The position numbers were made by a program, and so were the translations under genes. From a virus, in IMG/VR virus record IMGVR_UViG_3300005613_000286, positions 1-30,532 of that record: DNA of 30,532 nucleotides; one strand, 5' to 3'. Below are positions 4,850 through 25,557 of the stretch, one piece after another (the stretch's first letter is position 1; each line of letters begins with the position of its first letter). The notes beneath the pieces are model-generated. The model was not told the origin of the DNA, did not search any database, and saw nothing but the letters and a program-made list of their open reading frames with translations.

Positions 4850-4858
4850 TTTACTCTT

Positions 4859-6357: not shown

Positions 6358-6370
6358 CGAGGGGTTAGTT

Positions 6371-6610
6371 ATGAGCAGGCAAAGAGATTACCGTAAAGAG
6401 TATGTAACTCACGGTGGTACAGAGAGGCAGAAGAAAAGGAGGGCTGCTCGAAATAAAGCACGCCGCCACATGGAGAAAAAAGGTCTAGTTAAGAAAGGAG
6501 ACGGCAAAGAAGTTGATCATAAAGATATGAATCCTGAAAATAATTCACCCACAAATCTCCGCGTGGTGAGTAGATCAGTAAACCGAGAACGTCAACCCAA
6601 AAGGAGTTAA
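6371..6610 (+). CDS. Small HNH-like phage protein
   Basis: The product is 79 residues. The N-terminal part is very basic (RRAARNKARRHMEKKG). The C-terminal part, KEVDHKDMNPENNSPTNLRV and then NR, carries a DH-to-N-to-N pattern like the HNH core of small phage nucleases, without zinc Cys pairs. Related short proteins are common in tailed phages; nuclease activity has to be assumed rather than seen. A GAGGGG site lies 7 nt before the ATG, and the repeated AT-rich element lies just upstream. The next gene follows after 9 nt. Confidence 0.75.
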   Translation: MSRQRDYRKEYVTHGGTERQKKRRAARNKARRHMEKKGLVKKGDGKEVDHKDMNPENNSPTNLRVVSRSVNRERQPKRS

Positions 6611-6619
6611 ACTAATACT

Positions 6620-7141: not shown

Positions 7142-7271
7142 TTCTGAGCAGATGACAAGGATGGCTGGAATGCGATTAGGTGCTGGTCCTGCTGATGTTA
7201 TGCGAATGGTCTCAAATCCTTCTGAGATCACGAAGCGTCTGAAGTATCAACAAAGTTTCCCAAAAACTTGA
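7134..7271 (+). CDS. Small unknown protein (45 residues)
   Basis: This gene has a GTG start inside the end of the previous gene (8-nt overlap). The product includes SSEQMTRMAGMRLGAGPADV and NPSEITKRLKYQQSF, rich in Met and Arg and helical-looking. No family is recognised. The overlap with a same-strand gene and the absence of another frame in the gap support it modestly. Confidence 0.45.
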   Translation: MNSSEQMTRMAGMRLGAGPADVMRMVSNPSEITKRLKYQQSFPKT

Positions 7272-7305
7272 TAAACTAAGGCGCAACGCAAATCAACCGT
7301 CGATA

Positions 7306-7611
7306 GTGCCAGCAAGAAAATTTTATCCAGCTCCTTCCTGCCCTGAGTGCAGCGTAGAGGGAGCAGGCAGCTCTCATGTTAGGGATACAGTCTATTCAGA
7401 GGATGGTTGTATCCTCCGCTTCCGAGCTTGCGCGTGGTGTGAATGTAAGTGGTGGACGAAACAAACACCCGAAACCACAATCGATCCTTCAGAACATCGT
7501 GTTGTCCCTCCTTGTGACTATAAAGACTTACCTCGAAACCAAAAGCGAATCTATCGCATCGAAAGTATATCTAACTCTGCTAAGATGAAGACTTCTGACC
7601 AGCGGGCCTAG
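7306..7611 (+). CDS. Small zinc-ribbon-like protein
   Basis: The product is 101 residues with a GTG start. It has two CxxC knuckles, C12-P-E-C15 and C42-A-W-C45, separated by 26 residues, followed by ECKWWTK. This is the layout of a zinc ribbon like those in transcription-related or NrdR-type N-termini. The C-terminal half is charged with no recognisable domain. It is the last gene of the plus-strand block and converges on the minus-strand gene ending at 7608 with a 4-nt overlap. A nucleic-acid-binding role is an inference. Confidence 0.68.
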   Translation: MPARKFYPAPSCPECSVEGAGSSHVRDTVYSEDGCILRFRACAWCECKWWTKQTPETTIDPSEHRVVPPCDYKDLPRNQKRIYRIESISNSAKMKTSDQRA

Positions 7612-7790
7612 TTCAAGCCCGTTGAAGTGTATGCGTTAGCAGCTTCTCGGCGAATGCATTCGAGGAGTTGCTTTCGTTTATCTTCCACAAGATGCATCGA
7701 ACTCACGAAACAGTGAGCTTCAATTCCATGATTTATTACCGAAACTTTATATTTTTCATTAGATATAAATTCGACTTCTAATTCTCCCAT
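7608..7790 (-). CDS. Small unknown protein
   Basis: The product is 60 residues: a beta-like N-terminus (MGELEVEFISNEKYKVSVIN) and a helical C-terminus (DKRKQLLECIRREAANAY). It lies at the downstream end of the leftward block, 7 nt after the gene at 7798-8370, and converges with the plus-strand block. No family is recognised. Confidence 0.55.
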   Translation of the reverse strand: MGELEVEFISNEKYKVSVINHGIEAHCFVSSMHLVEDKRKQLLECIRREAANAYTSTGLN

Positions 7791-7797
7791 TCACAAA

Positions 7798-8370
7798 TTA
7801 TAAACCAGGCGCTTGCCAGGGATCACCACTGTTAACTTCTTGTTGCTGTTGCTGTTGTTGCATGTTGGCTGCTGCCTGTTGGGCGCGGAGCATTCCTATC
7901 GCTTTTTTGTGTTGTTCTAGCTCTTGCTGAATCGATTGAGTTTGAGCCTGCGCCCAAGCAGAAGCATTCTTCGAAAGACTGTCGAGAGCGTTCGTGGTGT
8001 GAGGGAAGTTAAAAAGAACTCCGATCCCTTGTTGAGATGGGATTTTTTGACCACCTGCGTCTTCACAGATCGAAGCAAGGAAAGCATGGGACTTATCGAT
8101 CGGAGAGTTGGAGAGAATCGCTAGCTCTACTGGATCGATCAAACCACGGTTTTTATCGTAGAGAGTGCGAAAACATTGAGTGACTCGTTCAGCTTCCTTT
8201 ATCTCGTCTTCCCGTTTGAATTTTCTTTCGGTGACAACTGAGGCACCTCCCGCAAGACCCCCCAGAAAGGCAAGAGCTGTTCCGGTGTAGAAAGGATTGA
8301 TGATCGCCGTGGCGACACTGGCACCTGCTCCGACGAGGAGGGCAATGTCGGAAAATTTAATTTGAGTCAT
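7798..8370 (-). CDS. Membrane-anchored protein with Gln-rich C-terminus
   Basis: The product is 190 residues from the ATG at 8370, which overlaps the primase-helicase stop by 14 nt; a longer frame to 8418 is less likely. Residues 8-47 are hydrophobic and small (IALLVGAGASVATAI, then GTALAFLGGLAGGASVV), suggesting two membrane helices or a hairpin. The rest is helical and soluble-looking, with a Q-run near the end (MQQQQQQQEV, from a CAA/CAG repeat at about 7841-7863). Similar glycine-zipper-like N-termini occur in phage virion or membrane proteins. The function is unknown. Confidence 0.6.
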   Translation of the reverse strand: MTQIKFSDIALLVGAGASVATAIINPFYTGTALAFLGGLAGGASVVTERKFKREDEIKEAERVTQCFRTLYDKNRGLIDPVELAILSNSPIDKSHAFLASICEDAGGQKIPSQQGIGVLFNFPHTTNALDSLSKNASAWAQAQTQSIQQELEQHKKAIGMLRAQQAAANMQQQQQQQEVNSGDPWQAPGL

Positions 8371-11137
8371 GTTTCTTGAAAGCTTTTTCCCAAAGTGTGA
8401 AGTCAGGGTTCTCAGCAAATTCCACCGGAGTTGGAAGCCGAGTGTCGCCTAATGATGCTCGGTCAGATGTTAGATCATATTTCTTTAGACGTAAACCTTG
8501 CACCGCCTGGACTCCTTCTTTAATTACAAGTTTGCAGAAAGGGAGTTTGAGGATATTGACAAGTGTTTCTTTGACACGTTCAACAAACCTAGGCTTTGTA
8601 CACGGCCTATAACCACATGAACGACAGTAGTTTGAGTAACTAGCATACAACTCAGTGTGAGCGTCTTTGTTGAACAGACCTCGCTCTGCTTCGTCAGCCG
8701 AAGGTTTAAACGCACCTCGTCCGATTTTTGTGGCTGTGTTAGGCGCATAAAGACAACACTCTGCCATCCATGCAACAAATTGATTGTTGAAAACAAGCGC
8801 TTCTAAGTTTGTGGAAGCGATAGCCGGGACGTGCTTAACTGGGTTTGCCAGGATATCGCGCATAGTCTCGTAAGAAAGACTCAGTGCCCACGAGACGATT
8901 CCACTCATTTCCGGCACAAAAACACCATCGATCCTGTCTTCGTAAACGTCGAGTAGCTGCTTTCTTTTGCTCGGAGGGACAACTTTGTCCATCACGATTG
9001 TCAAGCGACGACGCTCAAGACCACTCGTGGAATCATTCGATGTGATGTGTTCATTGGATGCGATGCAGACAAGACACTCCGGCTTAAACTGAATCATCTC
9101 TTTTCCGTACTTTCGCTCAGCTCGGAGTGTGTCAGAAGCAGAAGTTAGCTTCTTAAGAACGTCCATCCTTTTGTTGTAATTTGATTCGTCAGTAAGAAGC
9201 AAAAGACGCTTGCCCATGAGGTTGTAAGTTTCGAATTTATTCGTTTCAATAATTTCCAGACTCGAAGTGTGAGTCTGAGTGAACCCAGCAAGTGCAATCA
9301 TCAACTGCTGCATCGTTGATTTACCTGTGCCACCAGGGCCAACTAAGTGAAGAAATCTCTCTCCGGCTGTGTATCCAGTAAGAAGAGCACGGGCAAAAGC
9401 TTGAATCAGAAGTTCGTTACCTGGATTAAGTGAAGACTTTAACCAATTAAGAAACTCAGGACATTTAGCATCTGGGTCATAATCAAATGCCAGCTTTGAC
9501 CTTAAGTAGAGATCTTTGTGATGACCAGGCTTGAATTCCATGGTCTTGCTGTCGAAAACTCCATTTAAAAAAGGAATGTACGCCCTTGCCGTGGACCAGA
9601 TACTCTTTCTGCCACCTTCAAGAGATCGGAGAAGTTTTGACTTAAGAATCTTGTATACACTCTCCACATAAGCAGAGTTGTACTTAGGGAGTACACCAGC
9701 TTTAACAAGGGAGTCAAGAGCGTTTGTTACTCTTCTTTTGATGTGTTGCTCGTCTTGTGAGTACCAGACTCCTTGATCGTTGTCGTAGGTGTAAAACTTA
9801 TCAAGGTTGCTGTCGTATATAAAGTCTTTACCGCAGTTTGTGACGATGATATCGGCTACATCGTTTTCTGCAAACTGACGTTGCTGACCGCCTTGTTCGT
9901 CAGCATTATTCGACTGAAGGTTGATTAGCTCTGTGGGAGTTTTAGGGGTGGACATGGTTGATGTTGATGTTGATGTTGATGTTGATGTTGATGTTGATGT
10001 TGTTGTTTTGTTCTCTAAATTAAAAGAATCTAGAGATAGAACACTGTTTTTCGGGCTTGGCCTGCTTTTCCGAAGTTGTTCCTTGTCTTCTTCTGGTGCA
10101 AGTTTGTTAAAAAGATCAAAGTCTTGAGAAGAAACTTTCTTCCAACAGGCAGCTGCTCCGTTTTCAGATGCAAGTGCGATTGCAGGGAGTAACTCGTCCG
10201 CTTCTTTTATGGAGTCGAGGATCCGTGTGAACTTGTTGTCACAGTCGTATGGGTAACTGTAGATACTATAGAAGCAATCGTGCGCAATTGTCAAGGGTGA
10301 TACGCTACATGCTATTCCTTGCGCTGTGAGCCAGTTGGCCCAACCGATCAATTCTTTGAGGATCTTGGCCATTGTGGCGCTTCGATCTTCAACAGGATCT
10401 CCGTCTAAAACAGATTTGACTATCCGCGAGCAAAGTCGAACAATGTCTAACCCTGTATCTTTTGTAGGAGATGCTTTCAGTATCTCTTCGCTATTTACAT
10501 CCTTTGTGTTTTCTTTCTTTGGGGTTTTCGAGTAAGCGATATATGCCTCATCGATTTTACTGGAGGGAATGAATTTATCTGTAGTTAACAATATTCCTTC
10601 AGGTCCGTTAGCCCCGTAGAACAAGTTAGGAACAGTTGTGGCCCGAATATCTGCACCAGGGATACTTAGACAAATTGTTTTAAGAAACCACTGATAAAAA
10701 TCAGCGTCAATAATTGGTTTTTCAAGCCCGAAAACTAATCTGAAACGTGGCCACTCCTTGGTTCCAGAAGGTGAGTCATAAGCAACGCTGAGATACTTTT
10801 TGCATATATCGAGATCAAGAGCTTCGTCAAAGGTAAGTTCTTGCTTTTGAATCTTTTCGCCGTTTGGGCCTTTGCCATCTGCCTGATTATCAATGTCGAT
10901 TACTATAAGTCCTGCTTGTAAAACAAGAGTATTATTTTTTTCACGTTTCCCTTCTTTTAAATGCCACGCGCATAAGCCGGAGCGCATAGACATGTATTCT
11001 GCGATGGACTGAGCGTCCAAAAATTGCTCTGTCCAGCCCGTATTGAATACGCTGAAGTTTCCCCCGCTCTCTATCTTGCCTGTATTAGTATTGACGTGCT
11101 TCGAGACCTCTGTGTTTATAGAGCAAACGAACTTCAT
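8357..11137 (-). CDS. Primase-helicase (AEP-like primase plus D5/P4-type SF3 helicase)
   Basis: The product is 926 residues. The N-terminal part (about 70-190) has VIDIDN (D81, D83) and RFRLVFGLEKP, consistent with an archaeo-eukaryotic primase-like domain. A Thr/Ser low-complexity linker covers about 378-394. The C-terminal part has Walker A GPGGTGKS (600-607), Walker B LLLLTDE (645-651), sensor Asn in CIASNEH (about 695), and arginines at 709-711, matching the D5/P4 superfamily-3 helicase family. Such proteins prime and unwind DNA at phage forks. TTGGAG precedes the ATG. It lies downstream of a PD-(D/E)XK nuclease gene in the same block as PolA and an SSB-like gene. The helicase half is secure; the primase half is less so. 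Confidence 0.88.
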   Translation of the reverse strand: MKFVCSINTEVSKHVNTNTGKIESGGNFSVFNTGWTEQFLDAQSIAEYMSMRSGLCAWHLKEGKREKNNTLVLQAGLIVIDIDNQADGKGPNGEKIQKQELTFDEALDLDICKKYLSVAYDSPSGTKEWPRFRLVFGLEKPIIDADFYQWFLKTICLSIPGADIRATTVPNLFYGANGPEGILLTTDKFIPSSKIDEAYIAYSKTPKKENTKDVNSEEILKASPTKDTGLDIVRLCSRIVKSVLDGDPVEDRSATMAKILKELIGWANWLTAQGIACSVSPLTIAHDCFYSIYSYPYDCDNKFTRILDSIKEADELLPAIALASENGAAACWKKVSSQDFDLFNKLAPEEDKEQLRKSRPSPKNSVLSLDSFNLENKTTTSTSTSTSTSTSTSTMSTPKTPTELINLQSNNADEQGGQQRQFAENDVADIIVTNCGKDFIYDSNLDKFYTYDNDQGVWYSQDEQHIKRRVTNALDSLVKAGVLPKYNSAYVESVYKILKSKLLRSLEGGRKSIWSTARAYIPFLNGVFDSKTMEFKPGHHKDLYLRSKLAFDYDPDAKCPEFLNWLKSSLNPGNELLIQAFARALLTGYTAGERFLHLVGPGGTGKSTMQQLMIALAGFTQTHTSSLEIIETNKFETYNLMGKRLLLLTDESNYNKRMDVLKKLTSASDTLRAERKYGKEMIQFKPECLVCIASNEHITSNDSTSGLERRRLTIVMDKVVPPSKRKQLLDVYEDRIDGVFVPEMSGIVSWALSLSYETMRDILANPVKHVPAIASTNLEALVFNNQFVAWMAECCLYAPNTATKIGRGAFKPSADEAERGLFNKDAHTELYASYSNYCRSCGYRPCTKPRFVERVKETLVNILKLPFCKLVIKEGVQAVQGLRLKKYDLTSDRASLGDTRLPTPVEFAENPDFTLWEKAFKKHDSN
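9961..10002. repeat. Seven tandem copies of a hexanucleotide (ATGTTG) in the primase-helicase gene
   Basis: Seven perfect ATGTTG units (CAACAT on the coding strand) encode the Ser-Thr linker between the primase and helicase halves. Because the unit is 6 nt, gain or loss would change linker length by two residues without a frameshift. Confidence 0.9.
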
Positions 11138-12005: not shown

Positions 12006-12317
12006 TCAGAATGAATTAACTAGATCATCACCATCATCGGACACCTGATCGTCGTCGTCGATAAAGAACTCAGACATCTGATAGAGATATTGCTTATTTC
12101 TTTGTTCTAGTTCTCCCAAAAGGCACAATCCTGCAGAAAAAGATTCAGAAACAATCTCAGCGCAGGTTTCTGCATCCCTTGGATGACCGTGGTGGTCGAT
12201 ACACTCTGTGAGGAGTTGTTGGCTCAGGATTAATGCGGCTAGCTTATCCAGCTTCGCATTTTGCTGGACCTGAGTCTCCAGAAGTTTCTGTAAAAGACCC
12301 TCTAACTTGCTGGCCAC
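12006..12317 (-). CDS. Unknown protein with N-terminal coiled coil
   Basis: The product is 103 residues using the GTG at 12317; a TTG at 12353 would add twelve residues but is a weaker choice. The first 40 residues form a likely coiled coil (LEGLLQKLLETQVQQNAKLD). The end is very acidic (FFIDDDDQVSDDGDDLV). It overlaps the 3' end of the methyltransferase-like gene and is followed after 2 nt by the nuclease gene. No family is recognised. The acidic tail could mimic an SSB-type interaction tail, but that is speculation. Confidence 0.5.
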   Translation of the reverse strand: MASKLEGLLQKLLETQVQQNAKLDKLAALILSQQLLTECIDHHGHPRDAETCAEIVSESFSAGLCLLGELEQRNKQYLYQMSEFFIDDDDQVSDDGDDLVNSF

Positions 12318-12834
12318 GGTTGATAACCTTAGGTCGGTCCCATTGTATAGCAAATTCGATATTTGTATAGCTGAAGAGGTTTGAATTAGTATCGAATATA
12401 AACCACGCAGAGGTCATAGAGTCCTTTAGTTGCTTACTATCCGCACGGAACGATGGACGGGGCGACAAAACAATCAAATTTGTTAATGATTTTGATTTCA
12501 GCAATGCTTCTCTGCCTCTCGTAGGTTCTAGGAATGAGAGCCTATCGAGCAAACACAGTCCTTTTGTTGCCATGCTACAACCTACGTCTATTACCCACTC
12601 AGACTTTCTTCCAAGACCTTGAGTAATACAGAGAACCCAATCTATCTCTGGAGCGTTTTCCCAAAATGAACTTTCTACGATGTCGTCTAGCGCCGCGTTT
12701 ATTATGTTGCAATCCTCGTCTTGGACCTGAACGGAGAGTTGATTGCTTCGATCATTTACGATTAAGATATTGCCGTTCAATATTTTCTTCTCTTTTACAG
12801 GGCTGAAAATGCGATCAGGGACTTTGTAGAACAT
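12244..12834 (-). CDS. Methyltransferase-like protein lacking a clear SAM motif
   Basis: The product is 196 residues. The central part, LLDRLSFLEPTRGREALL, then LIVLSPRPSFRADSKQL, then DSMTSAWFIFD, follows the pattern of short phage proteins related to DNA adenine methyltransferases. No glycine-rich SAM-binding loop or canonical NPPY/DPPY motif is seen, so the catalytic core may be missing. The last 20 residues are unlike the family and overlap the next gene. Its ATG (12834) overlaps the divergent nblA-like ATG (12833) within one CATG. Similarity is by pattern only; the function may be lost. Confidence 0.55.
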   Translation of the reverse strand: MFYKVPDRIFSPVKEKKILNGNILIVNDRSNQLSVQVQDEDCNIINAALDDIVESSFWENAPEIDWVLCITQGLGRKSEWVIDVGCSMATKGLCLLDRLSFLEPTRGREALLKSKSLTNLIVLSPRPSFRADSKQLKDSMTSAWFIFDTNSNLFSYTNIEFAIQWDRPKVINRGQQVRGSFTETSGDSGPAKCEAG

Positions 12835-13120: not shown

Positions 13121-13948
13121 TCAAACTTCAAGCCCAGCGGCTTTCAAGGCTTCCTTCTGTTCGGCTGTTAGTTCCTTTGACTTAGCCGCCTTAGGTGCGG
13201 GTGGCTCAGCAGCCGCCTCAGCCTTAGTCCCAGGAACCCCGGCACCTGCCGGGAGAGATGCCAAGCCTTGAGGCGCATTCTCCAAACGTTTTGGATTGGC
13301 TTCGATAAAAGCCTCTTTAAGCTCCGCGTGGTCTGATCCAAGAGGTAACTCAATGAGATTCGAGCCGGGGATATGAGACTTAAGTGCAGCACCCACCAGA
13401 TCTCCACCATCTGAGCCCAGCCAGGTTGCAATATCTTCAATAAGTTTAAGTTCTTCATCTCCTTCTGCAGGGCGATCTTTGAATTCAACAGCGTTGAAGT
13501 TGATCTTAGCCCCATCTGCTCCGGTGATTGGATCTCTTTCGTTGAAGCTTTTTGTCACAAACTTAGTGCTTGTGATCACTTCCGCGACGTTAATGCGATT
13601 GTTGTAGAGCGTTTGGAAGTACGAGATGAAATTCTTTTGAGAAGACTTGCCGCTAATGATGCTGGTAGAAACACAGCGTGGAGGAAGAAGGCGATGGGAA
13701 GGGCTAACACCAATGTAAGCAATACGAATAAATTCCTCATGATTACGCATCCCAAGGTTGCCAAAGTATGGCGTGAAGCCGAGAAGAACGAATTCAATCG
13801 GAATGCCGTTGTCGTTCGCGTCCGTGATGGCAGAGTCAGGATCGTTATCGGATTTCCAACGACGCGCCTGTAAGTCGATTCGTAAGCAATGGGGCGGAAC
13901 TTGGCACAGGATTTCGTCAGCCGCGAATTTGCCAGCAATAAAGACCAT
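13121..13948 (-). CDS. Unknown phage protein, Ala/Pro-rich C-terminal tail
   Basis: The product is 275 residues. Residues 1-145 look folded and beta-rich (CLRIDLQARRWKSDNDPDSA, PIEFVLLGFTPYFGNLGM, FVTKSFNERDPITG). Residues 225-275 form a low-complexity Ala-Pro-Glu tail ending EALKAAGLEV. It follows the SSB-like gene by 39 nt and is the last gene before the terminator at 13074-13097, so a replication or recombination accessory role is plausible. No catalytic motif is seen. The ATG is preceded by a C-rich stretch rather than a ribosome site. Confidence 0.62.
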   Translation of the reverse strand: MVFIAGKFAADEILCQVPPHCLRIDLQARRWKSDNDPDSAITDANDNGIPIEFVLLGFTPYFGNLGMRNHEEFIRIAYIGVSPSHRLLPPRCVSTSIISGKSSQKNFISYFQTLYNNRINVAEVITSTKFVTKSFNERDPITGADGAKINFNAVEFKDRPAEGDEELKLIEDIATWLGSDGGDLVGAALKSHIPGSNLIELPLGSDHAELKEAFIEANPKRLENAPQGLASLPAGAGVPGTKAEAAAEPPAPKAAKSKELTAEQKEALKAAGLEV

Positions 13949-13987: not shown

Positions 13988-14635
13988 TCAAAGGGAGAAT
14001 TCAACTGACCCGATAGCGGCAGAGGCGACTCGACCTTTATCGGGATCGGCTGCTTTTTTAGGAGCAGCTTTCGTCCCTTTAGGAAGATAAAGGATTTTAT
14101 CGACGTTGTAATTTAAATACTGTTTATCGTCTTTTTCGCTGCATGAAACTTTACCTACAGCAATAGTAGGTGTGCCAGGTGCTAGTTCAGAAAGTTGCTT
14201 GCTTAACTCTCCCCAGGCCGTGAGCTTGAACCAGTTCGCATTCTGTTCTTCTTCTTTCTTCCAGGCAATCGATCTGTTGGTGACAGTGTTGTCCCCGAAT
14301 TCGACTTCTTCAGTCTTGGGACCGAGACCACCCGTGGCCATGAAGAGATTAAAAGCTAGAAGATCGTCAAAGTTTTCTTTAGTGACAATCAGCATGGGCA
14401 TCATCTGAAGCACACGGTCAGGCGTCTCCTTTGTCGGCCCAATCGCAAGAATGGTTTGACCTTCACTGAGTGAGTTAAGGAGTTTCCCAACGTAGTGGTC
14501 TGACTTTTGAATAAGCTGAACCGTTGTGGCCACCCGCTTTTCGCTGTTGGGGAGACACTCTGCGATGACGTTTGTTTTTCCGTCTGATTCGATTGATGAT
14601 TCTGTGACCCTAAGGCCCAGCATGAAGACGTTCAT
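13988..14635 (-). CDS. SSB-like single-stranded DNA-binding protein (OB fold)
   Basis: The product is 215 residues. Residues 110-185 look like an OB fold of SSB type: VTNRSIAWKKEEEQNANWF, then KLTAWGELSKQL, then GTPTIAVGKVSCSE, then YNVDKILYLPKG. The N-terminal 100 residues may hold a second OB-like barrel. The C-terminal segment is basic and Ala-rich and ends SVEFSL. SSB coats ssDNA at phage forks; this fits its place near PolA and the primase-helicase. It overlaps the upstream gene by 26 nt. Sequence is divergent from bacterial SSB, so the call rests on pattern and context. Confidence 0.6.
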   Translation of the reverse strand: MNVFMLGLRVTESSIESDGKTNVIAECLPNSEKRVATTVQLIQKSDHYVGKLLNSLSEGQTILAIGPTKETPDRVLQMMPMLIVTKENFDDLLAFNLFMATGGLGPKTEEVEFGDNTVTNRSIAWKKEEEQNANWFKLTAWGELSKQLSELAPGTPTIAVGKVSCSEKDDKQYLNYNVDKILYLPKGTKAAPKKAADPDKGRVASAAIGSVEFSL

Positions 14636-16481: not shown

Positions 16482-17045
16482 TTAATCGTAAGGCACAAAA
16501 AACCTTTTTAGATCAAACCCAGGTCCTACAGTGCCTTTTAGCACTTTCATTAACCGCTTAGCTTCTTCGTGGCAATTAAAGAGTTTGGCTTGCTCTTTAT
16601 TTGGCTTTAATTTGACTAAAGATTTTTCTTCAGCATTTAAAGCGTCGGATACGAACTGATCCCCTCTGGTGATCACCCATACCTCTCGGAACGAAAGAAG
16701 CGGCATGTTATCGACTTCTTCGCTAAAAAATAACCGACTTGGAAATTTTACTTTCCTTTTGTTTTTAGCGCTACTCTTTTTAGTCCTTGGTTTTGATTGC
16801 TTAACAGTTACTTTAACTTTTTCCTTTACAACCAATTCTTTTTTTAGTTTTCTAGCTGCATTTGCGGCGGGGAGTGCCTTGGCAAAAACTTCAGATGTGA
16901 AAAAAATCCCTTGATCCGTGCGGAAGCACCCAACGAAACCATCGTCAGTTTTAGCAGTGAAGATCTCTTTTTCAACAGGGATCTCAGTAATTTCCACTTG
17001 TGACATCTGGTCGCGTAGTTGAAAGGATACCAAATTTCTACTCAT
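16482..17045 (-). CDS. Unknown basic protein following DNA polymerase
   Basis: The product is 187 residues from the ATG at 17045, which overlaps the polymerase stop (ATGA), implying translational coupling. The centre is strongly basic (KVKVTVKQSKPRTKKSSAKN, then KRKVKF). The flanks look folded (FTAKTDDGFVGCFRTDQGIF; MPLLSFREVWVITRGDQFV). The basic linker suggests DNA binding, and the coupling suggests a polymerase accessory role, but there is no recognised family. Confidence 0.6.
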   Translation of the reverse strand: MSRNLVSFQLRDQMSQVEITEIPVEKEIFTAKTDDGFVGCFRTDQGIFFTSEVFAKALPAANAARKLKKELVVKEKVKVTVKQSKPRTKKSSAKNKRKVKFPSRLFFSEEVDNMPLLSFREVWVITRGDQFVSDALNAEEKSLVKLKPNKEQAKLFNCHEEAKRLMKVLKGTVGPGFDLKRFFVPYD

Positions 17046-18940
17046 TTTTCTGCCCAAGAATCCCCAATTGACGCATCAGCTTTTACCGGCACGAGCTTTA
17101 AGATTTTCTCGCCTGCTTCTTTCATGCATTGTTCGAGGACAGTTTTGTAGTGTTCTGCTTTATCTTCAACTGCCTCTAGAACAATCTCGTCGTGGACACA
17201 CGCGAGGAGCCTTACATCATTCGTTTCGAGATGCTCGGCAAGGTTTGCTAGAGACAGTTTAAGGATGTCAGCACCTGCACCCTGCACTAAGGTGTTACAA
17301 GCGACCATAAAACTCGCATCGTCATAAGACAATAATCTCCTTCTCCCTATTGGAGTCCTTACATAAACCCATCCGTCAGCCACGAGATCAGCATTTTCTT
17401 TGTGCCAAGAACGGAGTCGCGGGTAAGCCCTATGAAACGCGGAGTGAGCCAGCTTAGCCTCTGAAAGTGAGAGTACTTTGCCACTCTGAGCACTGTATGT
17501 TCTATATTTTTTGTAACCCATTCCGTAAAGAAGTGCGAAGTTAAGAGTCTTACCCTCCTGGCGCTGGGATTTTGTGACCTCGTCGAGAGGTACGTGATAG
17601 ATCAGGCTTGCCGTCACGGTATGAAGATCGTGCCCGTTCTGAAAGGCATCAATCATCTGAGGGATGTTGACTAGCTCTGCTCCAAGCCGAAGCTCGATCT
17701 GAGAGAAGTCACAAACTATAAGTTTGTATCCGGGAGAAGGTATAAAGCATTCCCTGAACTCAGCACCTCGTGGTACTTGCTGAATGTTGACTCCGAATTC
17801 TTTTTTCTCTTTGCTGGCAGCGACTCTCTTGGCTCCAGAGGACGTAAAGCGACCACTATTCGCACCATATTGCTTGTAACCACTATGGATCCTGTGAGAT
17901 ATAGGATGCAAATTAGCGATGAGTTTTTGACAGTGCGCGAGTTTAGTTTCAATTTTTGTTCTTTGTCTGTAAAGATTTAAAGTAGGGTCTTCGCTGGCGA
18001 ATTCGCTAAGTGCGACTTGATTTAGAGTCGGTTTTCCCGTTCGAAAGTCTCTTGGTACATCAATTCCAATTGAATCAAATTTTTTGAGGACTTGTGCCCC
18101 AGAGCCGGGGTTAAACTCTTTTCGCGCATTTTTCCCAACGCAAATATCTCCTGAAAGATCTCGCGGCAGTTTTTCATGAGCTTCAAGGCGGCTATCGAGT
18201 CCCTCAACAAAAAGTTTAGTAAGTCTGTCAAGCTCCTCGCTTACCTTTGCTTCTAGTATTTTTAGTTTGTTTATATTGACACCGAAACCTATGTGACTCA
18301 TCTTCGCTACCTGGCGGATTATTTTACTTTCTAAGCCGTAAACATCAATTAGATTTTCTTCCGCTAGTTCTTTAAGTTGATCAGCTGCGATTGTTGGGAG
18401 TATGTCAACGTCGCCAGCTGCGTATTCGATCTGTTCTAGATCAAGATCTTCGACACCCCAATCAGACGTTTGTTGCGACTTATCAACTTCGATTTCTAGT
18501 CGTCGTTTGGCTACTTCTTTCAAACTGCACGATAAGTCTGCGAAGTAGGGTTTTCCAATACCTGGCGATATTTTTTTCTCTTTAAAACCTGCTCTAAGAA
18601 CACGTTCAGCGAGCATAGTGTCAAATATTTTGTTCTTGTAATCGCATCCCCAGCTAAATAAGAACCTTAGATCGAAGGCAGCATTGTGGATAACCAACAT
18701 CTCTCTGGATGCAACTAAGTCTTTCAAGCTCCTGTCATCATCAAGCTTAAATAAATCAAAAACAAAGATCGTTCGATCCACGATTGTGGGGGAAGAGTCA
18801 CACAGCTGAAGGAGACGTGGCTTGTGAAGCAATGGGTCCAAACCAGTCGTTTCAAAGTCCAAGCAAAGCTTTTTAACTCCCTGAAGATCAGAAATAGCTT
18901 TGTCAGCTTTTTCGTTCGTAGTGATGTAATGCAGTTGCAT
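17042..18940 (-). CDS. polA: Family A DNA polymerase with 3'-5' exonuclease
   Basis: The product is 632 residues. The exonuclease domain has CLDFETTGLDP (D28, E30), HNAAFDLRF (D90) and YAAGDVDIL (Y173, D177). The polymerase domain has motif A DFSQIELR (D411), motif B R460-K464-TLNF468-ALLYG and motif C VHDE (H583, D584, E585). All catalytic residues are present. There is no 5'-3' nuclease domain, as usual for phage enzymes. The residue equivalent to E. coli Phe762 is Phe (F468), not the Tyr or Leu seen in other viral groups. It replicates the phage genome with the primase-helicase and SSB-like protein. A terminator-like hairpin ends one base before the ATG and no ribosome site is visible. Confidence 0.96.
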   Translation of the reverse strand: MQLHYITTNEKADKAISDLQGVKKLCLDFETTGLDPLLHKPRLLQLCDSSPTIVDRTIFVFDLFKLDDDRSLKDLVASREMLVIHNAAFDLRFLFSWGCDYKNKIFDTMLAERVLRAGFKEKKISPGIGKPYFADLSCSLKEVAKRRLEIEVDKSQQTSDWGVEDLDLEQIEYAAGDVDILPTIAADQLKELAEENLIDVYGLESKIIRQVAKMSHIGFGVNINKLKILEAKVSEELDRLTKLFVEGLDSRLEAHEKLPRDLSGDICVGKNARKEFNPGSGAQVLKKFDSIGIDVPRDFRTGKPTLNQVALSEFASEDPTLNLYRQRTKIETKLAHCQKLIANLHPISHRIHSGYKQYGANSGRFTSSGAKRVAASKEKKEFGVNIQQVPRGAEFRECFIPSPGYKLIVCDFSQIELRLGAELVNIPQMIDAFQNGHDLHTVTASLIYHVPLDEVTKSQRQEGKTLNFALLYGMGYKKYRTYSAQSGKVLSLSEAKLAHSAFHRAYPRLRSWHKENADLVADGWVYVRTPIGRRRLLSYDDASFMVACNTLVQGAGADILKLSLANLAEHLETNDVRLLACVHDEIVLEAVEDKAEHYKTVLEQCMKEAGEKILKLVPVKADASIGDSWAEK

Positions 18941-19843: not shown

Positions 19844-20269
19844 TTAAACATCGTAGATCGGCATTTCGCACGCATTTATTTTTAGTGCTTCAGTGAGCAT
19901 GTGGTACATTTCAATTGCGATGGCTGCGTACTCTCCTACCTCAAGTCTTAAATGCTTCTTAGCTTCATCCACCGTCTCGCATCCCGTGGTTCGATACAGC
20001 GCTTCCTCCAACCTTAAACTGATGTCCCTTGATGCACCTCCATCACTGCAATAGATAACTACATTGAACAGTTTTGCTTGGGGGAGATAAACGATTTTGG
20101 AATCTCGATGTTCAAAGACCGAAACCCTTTCGGAATGAAAATCTGCGTAAAACTCGGTTAAGAGTATTTCATAAACAAACTGCAGGAGACTTGTCTTGTC
20201 TCCTGCGTAGTTGTAGTCTTTAGATATTTCTTGTACTTGATTTAACACTTCTGCGAGTCTGTAGGCCAT
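19844..20269 (-). CDS. Unknown protein downstream of the VWA gene
   Basis: The product is 141 residues from the ATG at 20269 (a TTG four codons upstream is possible). It is acidic and helical-looking, with YRLAEVLNQVQEISKDYNYA, SKIVYLPQAKLFNVVIYCSD and AIAIEMYHMLTEALKINACE. No family is recognised. It lies 57 nt after the VWA gene, separated by the hairpin at 20307-20339. It could be a fifth member of the MoxR-VWA module by position alone. Confidence 0.58.
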   Translation of the reverse strand: MAYRLAEVLNQVQEISKDYNYAGDKTSLLQFVYEILLTEFYADFHSERVSVFEHRDSKIVYLPQAKLFNVVIYCSDGGASRDISLRLEEALYRTTGCETVDEAKKHLRLEVGEYAAIAIEMYHMLTEALKINACEMPIYDV

Positions 20270-20306: not shown

Positions 20307-20339
20307 AGTTCTCTTAGTGATGTAAATCACATTAGAACT
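20307..20339. terminator. Hairpin at the end of the VWA gene
   Basis: AGTTCT (20307-20312) pairs with AGAACT (20334-20339), and inside GTGAT pairs with ATCAC around a GTAA loop. On the plus strand it is followed by TTTT. It overlaps the last codons of the VWA gene on the minus strand, where the hairpin is not followed by a U-run, so it may stabilise or process the leftward mRNA. Confidence 0.4.
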
Positions 20340-21871
20340 TTTTGGAAAAGCTCAGAAGAGGAAGCGTCGTCATCCGTGTCAACCAACTCTACCGAGTCGC
20401 TGAAAAGCTCCAAAGTTTTTGACTTAGAACCAAGACAAAATGAATTCCACTCAATTTTCTTATCATCTTTCCAGAGTGAGATTTTGCGAATGTATTGGTC
20501 AGGGACTTCAGCATTACCATCAGTAATCATTAAAATGTCTGCTTTGTCATCAATGTTTTTGTGGTACATAGCGTCCATAATTACATTGGCGAAAGAAGTG
20601 CCACCCCGTGTTTGCCACGAGGCAACAAAGTCAAGCAAATCCTTGTGATTCTTTTTACCAGGCTCAAGCTCAACCCGCTCCTGAATTTTGTTATCAAAGA
20701 GCACGATAGAAACCTTGCGGTTCTGCTTAAGTGATTCTTCAGCAACCACAAGAGCGATTGCTTTCGACCACGTCTCAAACTCACCAGCCATAGATCCCGA
20801 GATGTCCACGTACATCACTACGGGGCCACGATCTAGCTCCTTGGTTGGTGCTTCGTAGTCTTTAGTAAGGATAGTTTTCTGCGCGTACTTGAGTGCGAAC
20901 AAAGCCTGACCTTCTTCCGTGGCGGCAAGTGCAATCTCAGAAGGGAATGCATTGATTACAGAGTCAGAGAACTTTGCGCCGACTATGTCACTATAGGAAG
21001 ACTGTGATCGGCGGGCACGCTTGCGGTTGTTCCAAGCGCGGCGCATTGCACCGAGACGTCGAGCTAGAAGCAGGAGCTTACGGTTGCTCTTGAGCTTTTC
21101 AGCAAGATCTCTCTTCGACTTGAGATCAGAGTGCTCGCCATTGCCATCATTGTCGCCTGCAAGATCTGAAATCGCATCTTCGAGCTTCGATGCCTCAGCG
21201 TCAGCACGGTCCATTGCCTGCTGCACCTGGGGCCTGATTTGTTCTCTAGCTTTGCTCATGGCCTCTTCGATCTGCTTGCCCAGCTGCTTGCCCTGTTCCC
21301 TCAGCTCAGCTGCCTTCTGATCGTCTCCTGCTTTTTTGGCTTCGACATACTGCTTGCGGATCTCCTGCAGCTGATCAGCCATCTGACCCAAAGCAGAGGG
21401 ATCAATCTGCTTCTCCTCAATTTGAACATCGATGATCTCGCTCAGTTTGTTGAGGATCACCACAGCGTTGTTACCTGCATTGAATTGATCGCCTATGCAC
21501 CGTGGCGCGATCGATGCCCATGCTGGAGAGCTGACGATGTCCGTCATCAGTCCAGTCCAGAATGCATTCTCAGGCTTGTAACCAGCAGGGAGAGAAGGGT
21601 TCAATCCATCTTGCTGATCCCTGAAATACTGCTCTGCCTCATCGATCGAGACAATCGGCGTGATGTTGTCGCCTTGGTAAAGGTGCTCGAACAGCTCTTT
21701 TCCAAAGCGGCTTAGTTTTCTGATGTCATAACGATCGATCAAGTAGTTGCACCGTGGAGATGTATCGCGAACAAAGTCACCCCAAAGGAAGTCACAAAGA
21801 GCAGAGCACGCAAGAACCAGAGGCTCATTATCGGAGAGCCTCAGGACTTCATTCTGAAATTGGTTTGTCAT
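20327..21871 (-). CDS. VWA-domain protein, ViaA-like
   Basis: The product is 514 residues. The C-terminal von Willebrand A domain has a complete metal-ion-dependent adhesion site: MYVDISGSMAGEF (D356, S358, S360), RGGTSFA (T425) and MITDGNA (D451). The spacing and flanks (GPVVMYVDISGSM, NRKVSIVLFDNKI, RGGTSF) resemble ViaA, the partner of the RavA ATPase. Residues 150-265 are a long charged helical region. Its start lies 2 nt after the stop of the MoxR/RavA-type ATPase gene. In the RavA-ViaA system the VWA protein recruits substrates to the ATPase; the same is inferred here. It is probably cytoplasmic. Confidence 0.88.
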   Translation of the reverse strand: MTNQFQNEVLRLSDNEPLVLACSALCDFLWGDFVRDTSPRCNYLIDRYDIRKLSRFGKELFEHLYQGDNITPIVSIDEAEQYFRDQQDGLNPSLPAGYKPENAFWTGLMTDIVSSPAWASIAPRCIGDQFNAGNNAVVILNKLSEIIDVQIEEKQIDPSALGQMADQLQEIRKQYVEAKKAGDDQKAAELREQGKQLGKQIEEAMSKAREQIRPQVQQAMDRADAEASKLEDAISDLAGDNDGNGEHSDLKSKRDLAEKLKSNRKLLLLARRLGAMRRAWNNRKRARRSQSSYSDIVGAKFSDSVINAFPSEIALAATEEGQALFALKYAQKTILTKDYEAPTKELDRGPVVMYVDISGSMAGEFETWSKAIALVVAEESLKQNRKVSIVLFDNKIQERVELEPGKKNHKDLLDFVASWQTRGGTSFANVIMDAMYHKNIDDKADILMITDGNAEVPDQYIRKISLWKDDKKIEWNSFCLGSKSKTLELFSDSVELVDTDDDASSSELFQKVLM

Positions 21872-21873
21872 GA

Positions 21874-23058
21874 TCAGTTAGAAAGGTTTGCAATTGAACG
21901 AGCTACCAACTGCTTGTCATTTTCAATTTCCTGAGCAGTTTTTACAAAGCGTTGGCGGACTTCCATTGTCATCCGGCAGGTTGTATCTTCGAGCATCCCG
22001 TCAACCTTAGTGCTCAACTTGTTGAGATCCTCGTGGATCTTCCTGAACTTTTTAACTTGTTCGTTAACGTCAGCAAGAGTCTCGAACTTCTTTGAGTTGA
22101 ATGCGTGGAACTCAGCCATCACACCAGAGGTAGCTCGCTTGATCTCCTTGTGGAGTTTGTCAGCCGTAGGAACCAACTGCTGAAGCACTTCTTTGATAAC
22201 ACTGATGTCGTCTGGTGTTTGGTACACGATGTGAATCAAAGTCTTGTGAAGGAACTCAGGGTAAATCTCTTTCTCACCCTGAACGATTGCGTAGCCTCTC
22301 AGAAATTTGAGGATCTGAACGCGACGACGATCGCTGATTGTGATGCCGCGAGTCGCAAGCATATCAATTACAGACGAGAAGACCTCAAGGAAGTTATCTG
22401 AAGGGAGAACCTCAGAGGCTTGACGCTGTAATTCTTCGAGATCAGCAAACGAAAGTGCAGACTCAACTTCAGGGCGCGGAGTGATACCCAGTGCCCAGTG
22501 ATCAAGAATCTTCTTGCTTGTTGGTTTAGAGAGAAGTTCCACCGTGGGCCTGAACAGGAAGCGATCACAGAATGCTTGCAACGCTTCTTCAGAAGGGAAG
22601 GAGTTAGTTGCAGCGACAATCGATTGAATCGGTGTCTTAATTGTGTCTTTACCGTTGTTGAATGTTCTCTCGTTCAGGATGGTTAGCAGAGAGTTAAGAA
22701 CGGCTGAGCTACCACGAAACAGCTCGTCCAGGAAAGCAACATTACTGCTTGGCAAGTAGCCTTCAACATCGCGAACGTATTCGTCTTTGAGCAGTCTGCT
22801 TACAGCTACTGGCCCGAACAGCTCAGAAGGGTCTGTTGTGGGAGAGAGCAGATAACCAAAGAATTTCGTATCTTTGAATCCGTTGCTAACCGAACGTACA
22901 AGTTCAGACTTACCAGTACCAGGAACGCCAAATAGAAAAGCGTTCTGTTTCGTGATGAGTGACGCCAGAAGTCCATCAACGATTGCTTCGCGCTCAAGGA
23001 AAGATTGATTGAGGGATGCGCGGAAGGATTGAAAATTCTTGAAGAGAGTGTTGTTCAT
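21874..23058 (-). CDS. MoxR/RavA-type AAA+ ATPase
   Basis: The product is 394 residues. Walker A is GVPGTGKS (44-51), Walker B is VAFLDE (107-112), sensor 1 is AATN (149-152), and candidate arginine fingers are CDRFLFR (R166, R170). The segment SPTTDPSELFGPVAVSRLLK and the LNSLLTILNERTFNNG following Walker B are typical of MoxR proteins, close to RavA in pattern. The C-terminal 130 residues form a helical bundle with a coiled-coil-like end. MoxR ATPases act as remodelling chaperones with VWA partners, and the partner gene follows 2 nt downstream. The gene is 32 nt after the long helical protein. Confidence 0.92.
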   Translation of the reverse strand: MNNTLFKNFQSFRASLNQSFLEREAIVDGLLASLITKQNAFLFGVPGTGKSELVRSVSNGFKDTKFFGYLLSPTTDPSELFGPVAVSRLLKDEYVRDVEGYLPSSNVAFLDELFRGSSAVLNSLLTILNERTFNNGKDTIKTPIQSIVAATNSFPSEEALQAFCDRFLFRPTVELLSKPTSKKILDHWALGITPRPEVESALSFADLEELQRQASEVLPSDNFLEVFSSVIDMLATRGITISDRRRVQILKFLRGYAIVQGEKEIYPEFLHKTLIHIVYQTPDDISVIKEVLQQLVPTADKLHKEIKRATSGVMAEFHAFNSKKFETLADVNEQVKKFRKIHEDLNKLSTKVDGMLEDTTCRMTMEVRQRFVKTAQEIENDKQLVARSIANLSN

Positions 23059-23090
23059 TTGAATAAGGAGTAAAGGGAAGCAGAGTGACT

Positions 23091-24281
23091 CTAGAAATCA
23101 CAGTCTTGCACGGAGCTTACAGGAAGCTCTCGCACTTCAGCAACTAGGTCATCAAGACTGACATTCGAGGCAGCGATAAGTTCACGACGTTTCTCAACGT
23201 GCTTTTGTAGATCTTTAATGCGTGTTGAATAAACCTTAACTTCAGTATCGACTTGAGCCATGAGAGCTTCAAGTTGTTCATCAGACTCAGCGTTGGTGAT
23301 TGCACTCATCAAATCTTTGTAAGTTCCGCTGAGAGCAAGAGACTTCTGAAGAGACTCAACTCCTTTAGAGGAGTCACGTCTGTCAACAATCTGCTTGAAC
23401 TCATCGCGCATCTCATTTTTGATCTCGCGATAACGCTGGAATGCACGATCTCGATCCTTTGGGTTGATCGCACCGTTCATTATCTTGCCGACTCTGAGAA
23501 GCTCGTTCGCAAGTTCCTTAGCTTTTTCAAGGCCAGGGACATGCTGTGAGATCAGTGAAAGATCTTGAGCAGCAATCTCCCAGGAGCCGCGACGTTTAGC
23601 TGAACCTGTCTGTCGTTCACCAACCTTGGAAGAAATACGAACATCGAGATCATCAATCAGCTCAGCACATTTCTCAAGCGCACGATCAGCGGCGGAATCC
23701 TGAGCAGCCTGATAAACCTCAGCAGTATTGGCAGCAGCCGTGGCAGCGATACGATCTTGAGAAGTTTCAGCTACCTCCATATCGACAGCGTGAGGGCCGA
23801 CGACATAGACATCAATAGGAGACTCAAACTCTTTAGCTGTAGGGAACAGTTTTAAATAAGCTTCGCGCACTATTGCACGATCATTTAGATCCTCAAACAG
23901 AGGCTCTACGAATCTGTTGATAGTGTTAGTCCACTTAGCTAACTCTTCTGACCAGAGGTTGCGAAGGATGGCATTGTTCTCTGATGCTTTACCACGGATC
24001 TGTTTGATGAGATCCATTGCTTCATCGAAGTCCTCAGCGCACAAAAAATGAGTGTCACCGTTATGGATGCAATATTCATCGTAAAGATGACGCTGAAGAA
24101 GCCTCAGTTCGTCAAGACATTTCTTGAGCGAACCTGAGAGGTTTGGACGCACAGACATACTCTGCTGTTTTTGCAGAGTATCAATCACATCCTTTGGCAG
24201 TTGCAGATCTTCCATTTTGATCTGCGTGGTTTGGCGCACATTTGCGCTGATGGAGCAGGAGAGAAGGAAGACGTTGTTCAT
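23091..24281 (-). CDS. Long helical protein of MoxR-VWA module (DUF3150-like candidate)
   Basis: The product is 396 residues, mostly helical with coiled-coil stretches (KLSTKV-like heptads; KDLQKHVEKRRELIAASN). The N-terminus (NNVFLLSCSISANVRQTTQI), a VYVVGPHAVD segment near 165 and the overall layout resemble the DUF3150 type of proteins that accompany MoxR and VWA genes on plasmids and phages. This is a judgement by pattern and neighbourhood. The ATG overlaps the previous stop (ATGA) and the ATPase gene follows after 32 nt, so it belongs to the same transcription unit. It may be an adaptor or substrate for the ATPase. Confidence 0.62.
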   Translation of the reverse strand: MNNVFLLSCSISANVRQTTQIKMEDLQLPKDVIDTLQKQQSMSVRPNLSGSLKKCLDELRLLQRHLYDEYCIHNGDTHFLCAEDFDEAMDLIKQIRGKASENNAILRNLWSEELAKWTNTINRFVEPLFEDLNDRAIVREAYLKLFPTAKEFESPIDVYVVGPHAVDMEVAETSQDRIAATAAANTAEVYQAAQDSAADRALEKCAELIDDLDVRISSKVGERQTGSAKRRGSWEIAAQDLSLISQHVPGLEKAKELANELLRVGKIMNGAINPKDRDRAFQRYREIKNEMRDEFKQIVDRRDSSKGVESLQKSLALSGTYKDLMSAITNAESDEQLEALMAQVDTEVKVYSTRIKDLQKHVEKRRELIAASNVSLDDLVAEVRELPVSSVQDCDF

Positions 24282-24703
24282 TTTTTGATACGAGTGAAAG
24301 CGGTAACGATTTTGTCAGTGGATTCGTGAATCTCCTGGCGAAGGAGAAGCTCCTCAATGAGAGCTTTGCGGCGAGCCTTGAGCACCTTCAGCTCAGTTTC
24401 GTGCTGCTGAATCCGTTCTTCAATCCGATCGAGTTTAGTGTGCTCGCTTGGTTTCTTGTAGATCTTCACCACGATGTTGGTGTTGATGTCCTCGAAGCGA
24501 AACTCTGAATCTTTGCCAGTGTAAAGACTGAGATCGAAACCTTCGCCGTCAGCAAGGATCAGATCCTTTGTGAGGTTTGTGCGGGCTGCTTCATACGTTA
24601 TGCCGTAGCTGTCGTTAAGCTCGGTGAGAGCAGTGTCGCATTCGTCATACGCTTCAGCAGCGATGCGACCTTGAGAACGTAGATGAGATTGATTGAGGAT
24701 CAT
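24278..24703 (-). CDS. Small coiled-coil protein, first gene of MoxR-VWA operon
   Basis: The product is 141 residues from the ATG at 24703. A GTG at 24745 would extend it, but that codon lies at the predicted transcription start and would be leaderless. The second half is a likely coiled coil (LDRIEERIQQHETELKVLKA, then RRKALIEELLLRQEIHES). The first half contains TNIVVKIYKKPSE. There is no recognised family. It overlaps the next gene by 4 nt and is led by a near-consensus promoter, so it is co-expressed with the ATPase and VWA genes. Confidence 0.65.
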   Translation of the reverse strand: MILNQSHLRSQGRIAAEAYDECDTALTELNDSYGITYEAARTNLTKDLILADGEGFDLSLYTGKDSEFRFEDINTNIVVKIYKKPSEHTKLDRIEERIQQHETELKVLKARRKALIEELLLRQEIHESTDKIVTAFTRIKK

Positions 24704-24752
24704 GGTCAAAGTGGTGTTGGTGTCGTTAGCTCGTGGGCGCCCCACGGATCTA

Positions 24753-24781
24753 AATATAGATCATGGGGGTTCCCTTGTCAA
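24753..24781 (-). promoter_or_regulatory. Near-consensus sigma-70 promoter for the MoxR-VWA operon
   Basis: On the minus strand TTGACA (24781-24776) and TATATT (24758-24753) are separated by 17 bp. The transcription start should fall near 24746, giving a leader of about 43 nt before the ATG at 24703. The 290-nt region 24746-25035 otherwise has no gene. Confidence 0.75.
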
Positions 24782-25019: not shown

Positions 25020-25041
25020 ACATAGTGCCATAGCACTATGT
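25020..25041 (-). terminator. Hairpin at the end of the dCTP deaminase-like gene
   Basis: ACATAGTGC (25020-25028) and GCACTATGT (25033-25041) form a perfect 9-bp stem with a four-base loop. It overlaps the stop codon at 25036-25038. No long U-run follows on the minus strand, so it could be a weak terminator or an mRNA 3'-end stabiliser. Confidence 0.5.
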
Positions 25042-25557
25042 GAGTCCCTTGCATCCCTTAACGGTCGCGTCTTTGTTATAGCGTCCAGTCTCGGCATAAG
25101 TCTTAAGCGGCATCGATGTGGTTTGGCTAAAGATAATTTGCCCGATTCTCATGCCTGGCCAGAGAGGTAACTCATGAAGACGACGAGCGTTCTTTAACTC
25201 CAGAGTCAATACGCTTCCATGGAATCCAGGATCAATCCAACCAGCCAGCAAATGCTCAAAGCCAGCACGGGCAAGCGAAGACTTCAATGCGAACTGGCCG
25301 CATACATTTGAAGGCATGTTGAAAGTCTCAAGAGTTTGAGCCAAGATAAATTCATCAGGCATGAGAAGAAAAGGCTTCTCTTTTGAATAACTCGTAATCG
25401 AAAGAGGGTGAAGCTCCTTCTGTTCTTCAATTTCGATCAGGACGTTATCACCAAGACGAACATCTAAAGATGCTGGATTAACTAACTCAAGCTCAAAAGG
25501 TGTAACCATTCCTGCCTCAACGCAGAGTTTTTGAATGGCGTGATCTGGAAGGATCAT
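25036..25557 (-). CDS. dcd: dCTP deaminase-like (dUTPase superfamily)
   Basis: The product is 173 residues. It has the family signature in order: NPASLDVRLGDNV, then FALKSSLARAGFE, then LAGWIDPGFHGSVLTLELKN with Glu120 as the likely catalytic residue, then PLWPGMRIGQIIF. dCTP deaminase turns dCTP into dUTP in the thymidylate pathway; some members also cleave dUTP. Length and motif order match the Dcd group better than dUTPase. In phages it tunes nucleotide pools for replication. It is 43 nt downstream of the MarR-like gene and ends in a hairpin. Confidence 0.92.
   Translation of the reverse strand: MILPDHAIQKLCVEAGMVTPFELELVNPASLDVRLGDNVLIEIEEQKELHPLSITSYSKEKPFLLMPDEFILAQTLETFNMPSNVCGQFALKSSLARAGFEHLLAGWIDPGFHGSVLTLELKNARRLHELPLWPGMRIGQIIFSQTTSMPLKTYAETGRYNKDATVKGCKGLT

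Follow-up and report, generated by a model that had tools for sequence, protein, structure and literature searches.

Why should a phage carry genes for a MoxR-class AAA+ ATPase and a VWA protein, which in cells form chaperone pairs such as RavA–ViaA, and on what would the encoded machine act? The window analysed here is the whole 30,532-nucleotide stretch of the IMG/VR record IMGVR_UViG_3300005613_000286. The two genes lie in it behind two further genes, P4 and P3, and the features on which the argument depends are as follows.

24753–24781, minus strand: sigma-70 type promoter, TTGACA-17-TATATT, ahead of the operon (11/12 consensus match)
24703→20327, minus strand: operon P4–P3–MoxR–VWA (ORF calls)
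24278–24703, minus strand: P4, 141 amino acids, two long predicted helices, ATG at 24703
23091–24281, minus strand: P3, 396 amino acids, putative adaptor with a DUF3150-like predicted fold
23091–23099, minus strand: last codons of P3, Asp-Phe and the stop codon (homologue alignment)
21874–23058, minus strand: MoxR-class AAA+ ATPase, 394 amino acids, with a RavA-like AAA core (residues 8–293) and a helical C-terminus different from that of RavA
20327–21871, minus strand: VWA protein, 514 amino acids, with a helical N-terminal part and a C-terminal VWA domain at about residues 350–503 (profile searches and alignment)
17042–18940, minus strand: family A DNA polymerase, a context gene downstream of the module

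The layout agrees with that given in an earlier note on this DNA: the P4 and P3 ORFs share 4 nt, the MoxR gene ends 2 nt ahead of the VWA start and a spacer of 17 nt separates TTGACA (24781–24776) from TATATT (24758–24753). Among 75 relatives, 36 have a promoter-like site with at most two mismatches ahead of P4, compared with 14 of 375 shuffled upstream sequences. The ORF of P4 could also be read from a GTG at 24745, but it would then reach to about 8 nt from the −10 box, and the ATG at 24703 is therefore the more likely start. The description of P4 and P3 as coiled-coil proteins was only roughly right; P4 is predicted to consist of two long helices around a small β element (pLDDT 94.6), and P3 to begin with a mixed α/β region that gives way to helical bundles (pLDDT 87).

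The ATPase has the Walker A and B motifs, the sensor-1 asparagine, the conserved arginines and the core of the MoxR AAA+ proteins, and K50 (Walker A), D111 and E112 (Walker B), N152, R166 and R170 are invariant in 52 of 52 homologues. Its best Pfam match is bpMoxR (PF20030; 1.3e-55), with AAA_5 at 7.6e-20. The VWA protein has the complete metal site (MIDAS) that had been read from the sequence, with D356, S358, S360, T425 and D451 invariant in 53 of 53 homologues. RavA–ViaA of enterobacteria is similar in having an AAA core and a C-terminal VWA domain with a MIDAS, encoded by adjacent genes. RavA is the nearest solved structure to the ATPase (1e-42) and the sole one matched by its profile, over residues 11–299 of a chain of about 498; the VWA protein matches the ViaA model with 2.7e-17 and shares with ViaA the C-terminal VWA domain with a complete MIDAS and the position of its gene beside MoxR. 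The names ‘RavA-type’ and ‘ViaA-like’ used in the earlier note are thus apt for the AAA core and the VWA domain, and profile searches confirm the MoxR and intact-MIDAS VWA families, but membership of the RavA and ViaA families is not supported. The ATPase scores 124.7 bits against a cut-off of 681 for the NCBIfam RavA equivalog, over residues 12–298 only, and the VWA protein 63.1 bits against a cut-off of 500 for ViaA. Beyond the AAA core, neither the Pfam search nor the coverage of the PDB profile reveals a LARA domain or the C-terminal domain of RavA, and P3 and P4 are extra to the RavA–ViaA pair. In the MoxR tree, which was midpoint-rooted and contains some long branches, the phage proteins form a clade (100/100) that is sister to cyanobacterial plasmid MoxRs (95/91), and RavA falls into a separate supported group (96/99).

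These comparisons bear on a reading in line with the earlier note, in which the module is an analogue of RavA–ViaA and, early in infection, remodels a complex of the cyanobacterial host, be it respiratory, photosynthetic or metabolic. The matches to RavA and ViaA and the strong promoter of its own would suit such a role; the nearest relatives, however, lie on plasmids with a P3-like partner rather than in host metabolic operons, and because the LARA domain is missing, the scores fall below the cut-offs and RavA sits in another clade, the respiratory and decarboxylase complexes on which the bacterial pair acts are not the best guide. We consider a host-directed machine of this kind quite improbable. 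Cobalamin and magnesium chelatases (CobS/CobT and BchI/BchD) were set aside; none of the window genes searched was recognised as a chelatase large subunit, and RavA and bpMoxR gave the best profiles.

The order P4–P3–MoxR–VWA on one strand is found at 75 distinct loci, and nearly all of the exceptions lie at contig edges, so that the four genes are co-conserved in related phages. One contig, L107, has MoxR–VWA without P3 and P4, from which P3 may be dispensable, although L107 is a fragment. In comparison with L021, P4 has a dN of 0.36 and a dS of 1.15 and P3 has a dN of 0.32 and a dS of 3.5; dS is saturated for the MoxR and VWA genes. The phages are an uncultured cyanophage lineage, as had been supposed, and they have terminase, structural-block and replication genes in common with the cultured phage S-EIV1: its terminase (52%) and one structural-block protein (65–70%) have counterparts in relatives of the window, and its primase (30%) and exonuclease (39%) in the window itself. 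The entire module is absent from S-EIV1 and is therefore not essential to the lineage. The placement in a replication block also held: a 261-residue gene and then polA follow the module on one strand in 60 of 65 loci, and it shares its neighbourhood with genes for a primase, an exonuclease, an SSB-like protein and the polymerase; in those relatives that were examined, the structural block occupies the other strand. No P3 relatives were found in 50,697 phage records or, by a pattern scan, in 84,980 cellular species representatives, in which MoxR relatives are only 28–44% identical; the scan overlooks distant P3 homologues, as plasmids later yielded some.

Phage MoxR–VWA pairs are themselves already known, and the complete set that the earlier note singled out is not new in kind. 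A pair in group 2.2 jumbo phages has been proposed to function in virion assembly, and another has been reported in Acidianus two-tailed virus (ATV), where it is linked to tail development (PMC7824862). These viruses, Aphanizomenon phage CL131 and Moorella phage MTATph1 all encode MoxR and VWA proteins, with about 27–33% identity to those of the module; P3 is absent from CL131 and MTATph1, the two that were tested for it. Such precedents, together with the similar ATPases of ATV-type viruses, would favour a late-acting chaperone for the maturation of capsid or tail proteins. In the jumbo phages, however, the VWA protein is described as a fusion with an N-terminal metallopeptidase, and Pfam detects no peptidase domain on the VWA protein here; moreover, the module stands among replication genes opposite the structural block, and S-EIV1 does without it yet shares the terminase and other structural-block genes. 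A function in virion assembly is, in our judgement, unlikely.

The closest relatives of the ATPase are encoded on cyanobacterial conjugative plasmids (Acaryochloris and Chroococcidiopsis). On Acaryochloris pREC1 and pREC4, Chroococcidiopsis pCHRO.01 and CCNUC1 pA MoxR is immediately preceded by the gene of a P3 homologue (HMM 7e-18 to 7e-26; hhalign 98%) and followed by VWA, so that these plasmids match the phages in the three homologous proteins and in their order. We found no description of this trio in the literature searched. It differs from the phage operon in lacking P4, the intact plasmid P3 homologues end in Gly-Phe instead of Asp-Phe, and in Chroococcidiopsis MoxR and VWA are separated by an antitoxin gene or a toxin–antitoxin gene set. 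Only this phage group yielded P4; the plasmids with P3–MoxR–VWA have no homologue of it and a viral fold search returned nothing.

The pREC1 copy is followed by a gene for a NACHT-domain protein, and PF20030, the best Pfam match of the ATPase, takes its name from MoxR–vWA–β-propeller conflict systems. Both would fit a relative of the bpMoxR ternary conflict systems that serves in defence or counter-defence, by inter-phage exclusion or by inactivating host immunity. The module nevertheless has no effector domain, β-propeller or other sensor (P3 and P4 are predicted to be mainly helical and have no β-propeller Pfam match), a PADLOC scan for defence systems gave no meaningful match, and the stable gene content, in which partner genes are not swapped, is unlike that of typical conflict systems. 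We give this explanation little credence.

The C-terminus of P3 is exactly Asp-Phe in 89 of 89 distinct homologues and in none of 1600 other ORFs, although the linker ahead of it is a poorly conserved, variable tail; this invariant end is new here. In the same genomes the SSB-like protein ends in [DN]FxL or [DN]FxF (49/49), a neighbouring 275-residue protein in GL[DE]F/V/I (45/49) and a 115-residue protein in Phe (39/46). Acidic-Phe tails are fairly common, and the likeness of the P3 tail to SSB tips could thus be a coincidence. The earlier note had pointed to DUF3150, and the result is divided: Foldseek links the predicted fold of P3 to a phage DUF3150 protein (E of 1.5e-6, probability of 1.00, TM-score of only 0.46–0.59), but sequence profiles show no link (hhalign probability of 0.2%; no match to the Pfam model PF11348 among 13 P3 members), and the relationship is one suggested by predicted fold. 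A PDB fold search with P3 returned nothing. Other candidate relatives were rejected: CL131 gp148 (LPD29) has no sequence support, Mycobacterium phage Dylan gp94 is a weak Foldseek match, likewise without sequence support, beside a non-MoxR-like AAA gene, and the profile comparison with DUF6744 was not significant.

DUF3150 matches occur in 1102 plasmid records, and on conjugative plasmids the gene sits in SSB–RecT–exonuclease–MoxR–DUF3150–VWA cassettes with a lambda-type exonuclease. These are likewise three-component systems of MoxR, adaptor and VWA, in which the adaptor may be similar to P3 in its predicted fold and has a terminal aromatic residue (Phe or Tyr, 8/8). The order small–MoxR–DUF3150–VWA is unlike that of the phage operon, the MoxR and VWA proteins are distant from those of the phages (hhalign 81% and 44%), and P3 and P4 have no sequence-level match; P4 does not match the small gene (116–126 amino acids). 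Searches for viral relatives of DUF3150 yielded none, and the term ‘DUF3150’ is absent from 5.39 million open papers. P3 and the DUF3150 and DUF6744 proteins, both of which look unrelated to it, might still form one class of adaptors, marked by an acidic-Phe tip at the C-terminus, that serves phages and conjugative plasmids alike by coupling MoxR–VWA motors to SSB-type complexes of DNA replication or recombination. This idea is tentative and we doubt it more than we credit it; if true, it would point to a hitherto undescribed family of machines, carried by mobile elements, that remodel nucleoprotein complexes.

Our preferred reading, to which we assign a probability of roughly 45%, is that the operon encodes a MoxR–VWA remodeller of a kind carried by mobile elements, that P3 is its adaptor and that the machine probably acts on phage complexes for replication or recombination. 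The MoxR protein would form an ATP-driven ring, and the VWA protein would sit on this ring, its metal site gripping an acidic ligand. The best mechanistic model is NorQ/NorD, a MoxR ring with one VWA adaptor: the MIDAS binds acidic residues of the target, nitric oxide reductase, a finger of the VWA protein has been proposed as a plug for the ring, and the published account, as used here, describes no P3-like third component (PMC9976466). P3 would be the dedicated adaptor, its variable C-terminal tail carrying the obligatory Asp-Phe end, and the operon would be the phage branch of a P3-like–MoxR–VWA system that is also carried by cyanobacterial conjugative plasmids, with P4 added in the phages. 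While the phage replicates, the machine would most likely take apart or remodel the protein–DNA complexes that the phage itself forms for replication or recombination; the location in the replication block is consistent with this role and is no proof of it.

The metal site of the VWA protein could have the Asp-Phe tail as its ligand; alternatively, the tail could dock on replication proteins as SSB-type acidic-Phe tips do. Were it purely a metal-site ligand or an element of the ring pore, unrelated to DNA replication, the client would be another phage protein. The invariance of the terminal Asp would agree with this, as would the acidic sixth ligand that a MIDAS needs from its partner (PMC9976466), but this would leave unexplained why the module adjoins polA and why the plasmid DUF3150 cassettes contain SSB, RecT and exonuclease genes, and we see only a slim chance that the tail works solely inside the machine.

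Phage and plasmid MoxR–VWA genes are usually annotated after their cellular relatives, as chelatase or RavA. The constant partner P3, whose last two residues are invariant in the phages, provides a concrete experimental handle on them, and the link between the phage operon, the cyanobacterial plasmids and the DUF3150 cassettes suggests one testable function, the remodelling of replication or recombination complexes, for a set of widespread and unexplained genes.

The four genes described in the earlier note, their spacings and the promoter in front of them were all borne out by open-reading-frame calls and promoter scoring:

24703–24278, minus strand: P4 (141 aa), the first gene after the promoter
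24281–23091, minus strand: P3 (396 aa), the second gene
23058–21874, minus strand: MoxR ATPase (394 aa), the third gene
21871–20327, minus strand: VWA protein (514 aa), the fourth gene

No catalytic or metal-site residue is missing in the window, and all are invariant over 52–53 divergent homologues; P4 and P3 are both under purifying selection, and the sigma-70-like promoter before P4 is enriched among relatives. The operon is real and conserved. We searched 2.9 million viral contigs with P1, P2 and P3, each used as a bait by itself (P1 and P2 being the VWA/MoxR pair), and removed duplicates. All four genes lie in the order P4–P3–MoxR–VWA on a single strand at 75 deduplicated, phylogenetically non-independent loci, the co-conservation that had been expected. 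The scans also returned the window itself, contigs cut inside or near the operon, the Aphanizomenon phage CL131 and the Moorella phage MTATph1, whose records carry MoxR–VWA only, and one contig (L107) that has MoxR–VWA and lacks P3 and P4. In the L107 region 2986–8749 MoxR–VWA is kept, and several repeated-looking small ORFs (MTxEHPITPPPEL...) occupy the expected place of P3 and P4. As the P2 scan comprises the best 80 of 130, P3 or P4 may be missing in more distant variants.

A 261-aa gene and then a family A DNA polymerase follow the module on the same strand at 60 of the 65 loci that are long enough to show it. In the window a variable gene (19844–20268, minus strand; 22–35% identity in relatives where found) separates VWA from the 261-aa gene, and upstream of the module is a dCTP deaminase gene (25036–25557, minus strand), found in the same place in 22 of the 50 relatives that are long enough. 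The window is a 30.5 kb IMG/VR fragment; its relatives of 78–87 kb share with the cultured Synechococcus phage S-EIV1 a terminase (52%), a structural-block protein (65–70%) and replication genes, the PurM gene of one of them is 82% identical to its S-EIV1 counterpart, and the window shares the primase and exonuclease with S-EIV1. The host is therefore likely to be a picocyanobacterium. All four module genes are absent from the S-EIV1 genome.

The ATPase is of the MoxR class (PF20030, 1e-55). The pair had been read as RavA–ViaA-like, and in its general mode of working the likeness to RavA–ViaA, and to NorQ–NorD, stands. It is not, however, a RavA–ViaA: RavA is the sole match of the ATPase profile among solved structures, restricted to the AAA core; the last 100 residues are unlike RavA, and no LARA domain was found in Pfam or solved-structure profile searches; and the VWA protein matches the ViaA model at 2.7e-17, yet scores far under its cut-off. 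A maximum-likelihood tree (midpoint-rooted, with several long branches) unites the 14 phage ATPases sampled in a single clade (100/100). Its sister group is made up of Acaryochloris and Chroococcidiopsis plasmid ATPases (95/91), with CL131 next and RavA in a separate group with cellular ATPases.

P3 belongs to no family in a Pfam search and has no match among phage records or in the genome-contig scan. On cyanobacterial plasmids, a homologue of P3 (HMM 7e-18 to 7e-26; hhalign 98.4% over 315 columns) immediately precedes MoxR, and VWA comes after MoxR. In two Chroococcidiopsis plasmids (L360, 7364–10965; L361, 6463–10432) MoxR and VWA are separated by an antitoxin gene (HigA) or a toxin–antitoxin pair on the opposite strand. 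The AlphaFold model of P3 is confident (pLDDT 87); it has no match in the PDB, and among its viral Foldseek matches a DUF3150 protein ranks second (E 1.5e-6, probability 1.00, TM 0.46–0.59). Because DUF3150 sequence profiles do not match P3, this predicted link is structural and tentative. Of the 1102 plasmid records in which DUF3150 occurs, 962 are conjugative. Five annotated plasmid regions have a complete trio, and in four of these the cassette reads SSB (or, at that position, an unnamed gene), RecT or DNA recombinase, lambda-type exonuclease, small gene, MoxR, DUF3150, VWA; in the fifth, the upstream gene is a 3'-5' exonuclease. The small gene encodes 116–126 aa. Conjugative plasmid regions L268, L270, L271, L273 and L274 carry the MoxR–DUF3150–VWA trio, mostly behind SSB, RecT and lambda-type exonuclease genes.

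Each of the 89 distinct P3 proteins has exactly Asp-Phe as its last two residues, behind a stretch of ∼20 residues that differs between proteins in both sequence and length; among 1600 other ORFs of at least 150 aa from the same loci, not one ends this way. On the plasmids, P3 homologues that are intact terminate in DPxxGF, and DUF3150 proteins in Phe or Tyr (8/8), mostly behind an acidic stretch. A Pseudanabaena plasmid DUF6744 protein upstream of MoxR–VWA ends in EDNLFDLGF (L357, 4425–10578, where a second AAA gene and SSB follow); MTATph1 also has DUF6744 in this position. Bacterial SSB and T7 gp2.5 dock through acidic tails that end in Phe; the T7 work is cited in PMC9917605. In S-EIV1 the C-terminus of the ssDNA-binding protein reads TDEPF. 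The SSB-like protein of these phages (window 13988–14635, minus strand; PF00436, weak) ends in [DN]FxL or [DN]FxF in 49/49 homologues, whereas the usual tip is the acidic DDDIPF. The adjoining gene (13121–13948, minus strand) encodes a 275-aa protein of unassigned family (69–81% identity between distant relatives, at least 327 viral matches) ending in GL[DE]F/V/I in 45 of 49 distinct homologues, and a small protein beside the exonuclease gene (12006–12353, minus strand) has a very acidic tail, Phe-terminal in 39/46. The P3 tail might act as an SSB-type tip bringing the machine to replication proteins. By analogy with NorD, which uses acidic residues of its target at the VWA metal site (PMC9976466), it might instead supply an acidic sixth ligand there; the two readings are compatible, and either or both may hold.

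Group 2.2 jumbo phages are described as carrying MoxR–vWA pairs, for which a virion-assembly role is proposed by analogy with Acidianus two-tailed virus (PMC7824862), and cyanophage S-CREM1 as carrying a MoxR gene (PMC9964418); the literature searched gave no description of the four-gene module, P3, its tail or the plasmid trio. The operon very probably encodes a MoxR–VWA machine, a kind already known from mobile elements, with P3 as its dedicated partner (probability roughly 0.9). Mainly because the MoxR–adaptor–VWA trio sits in plasmid recombination cassettes and the phage module adjoins a polymerase, we propose from gene context that its client would be replication or recombination complexes; the whole mechanism, this client included, we hold at slightly under even odds.
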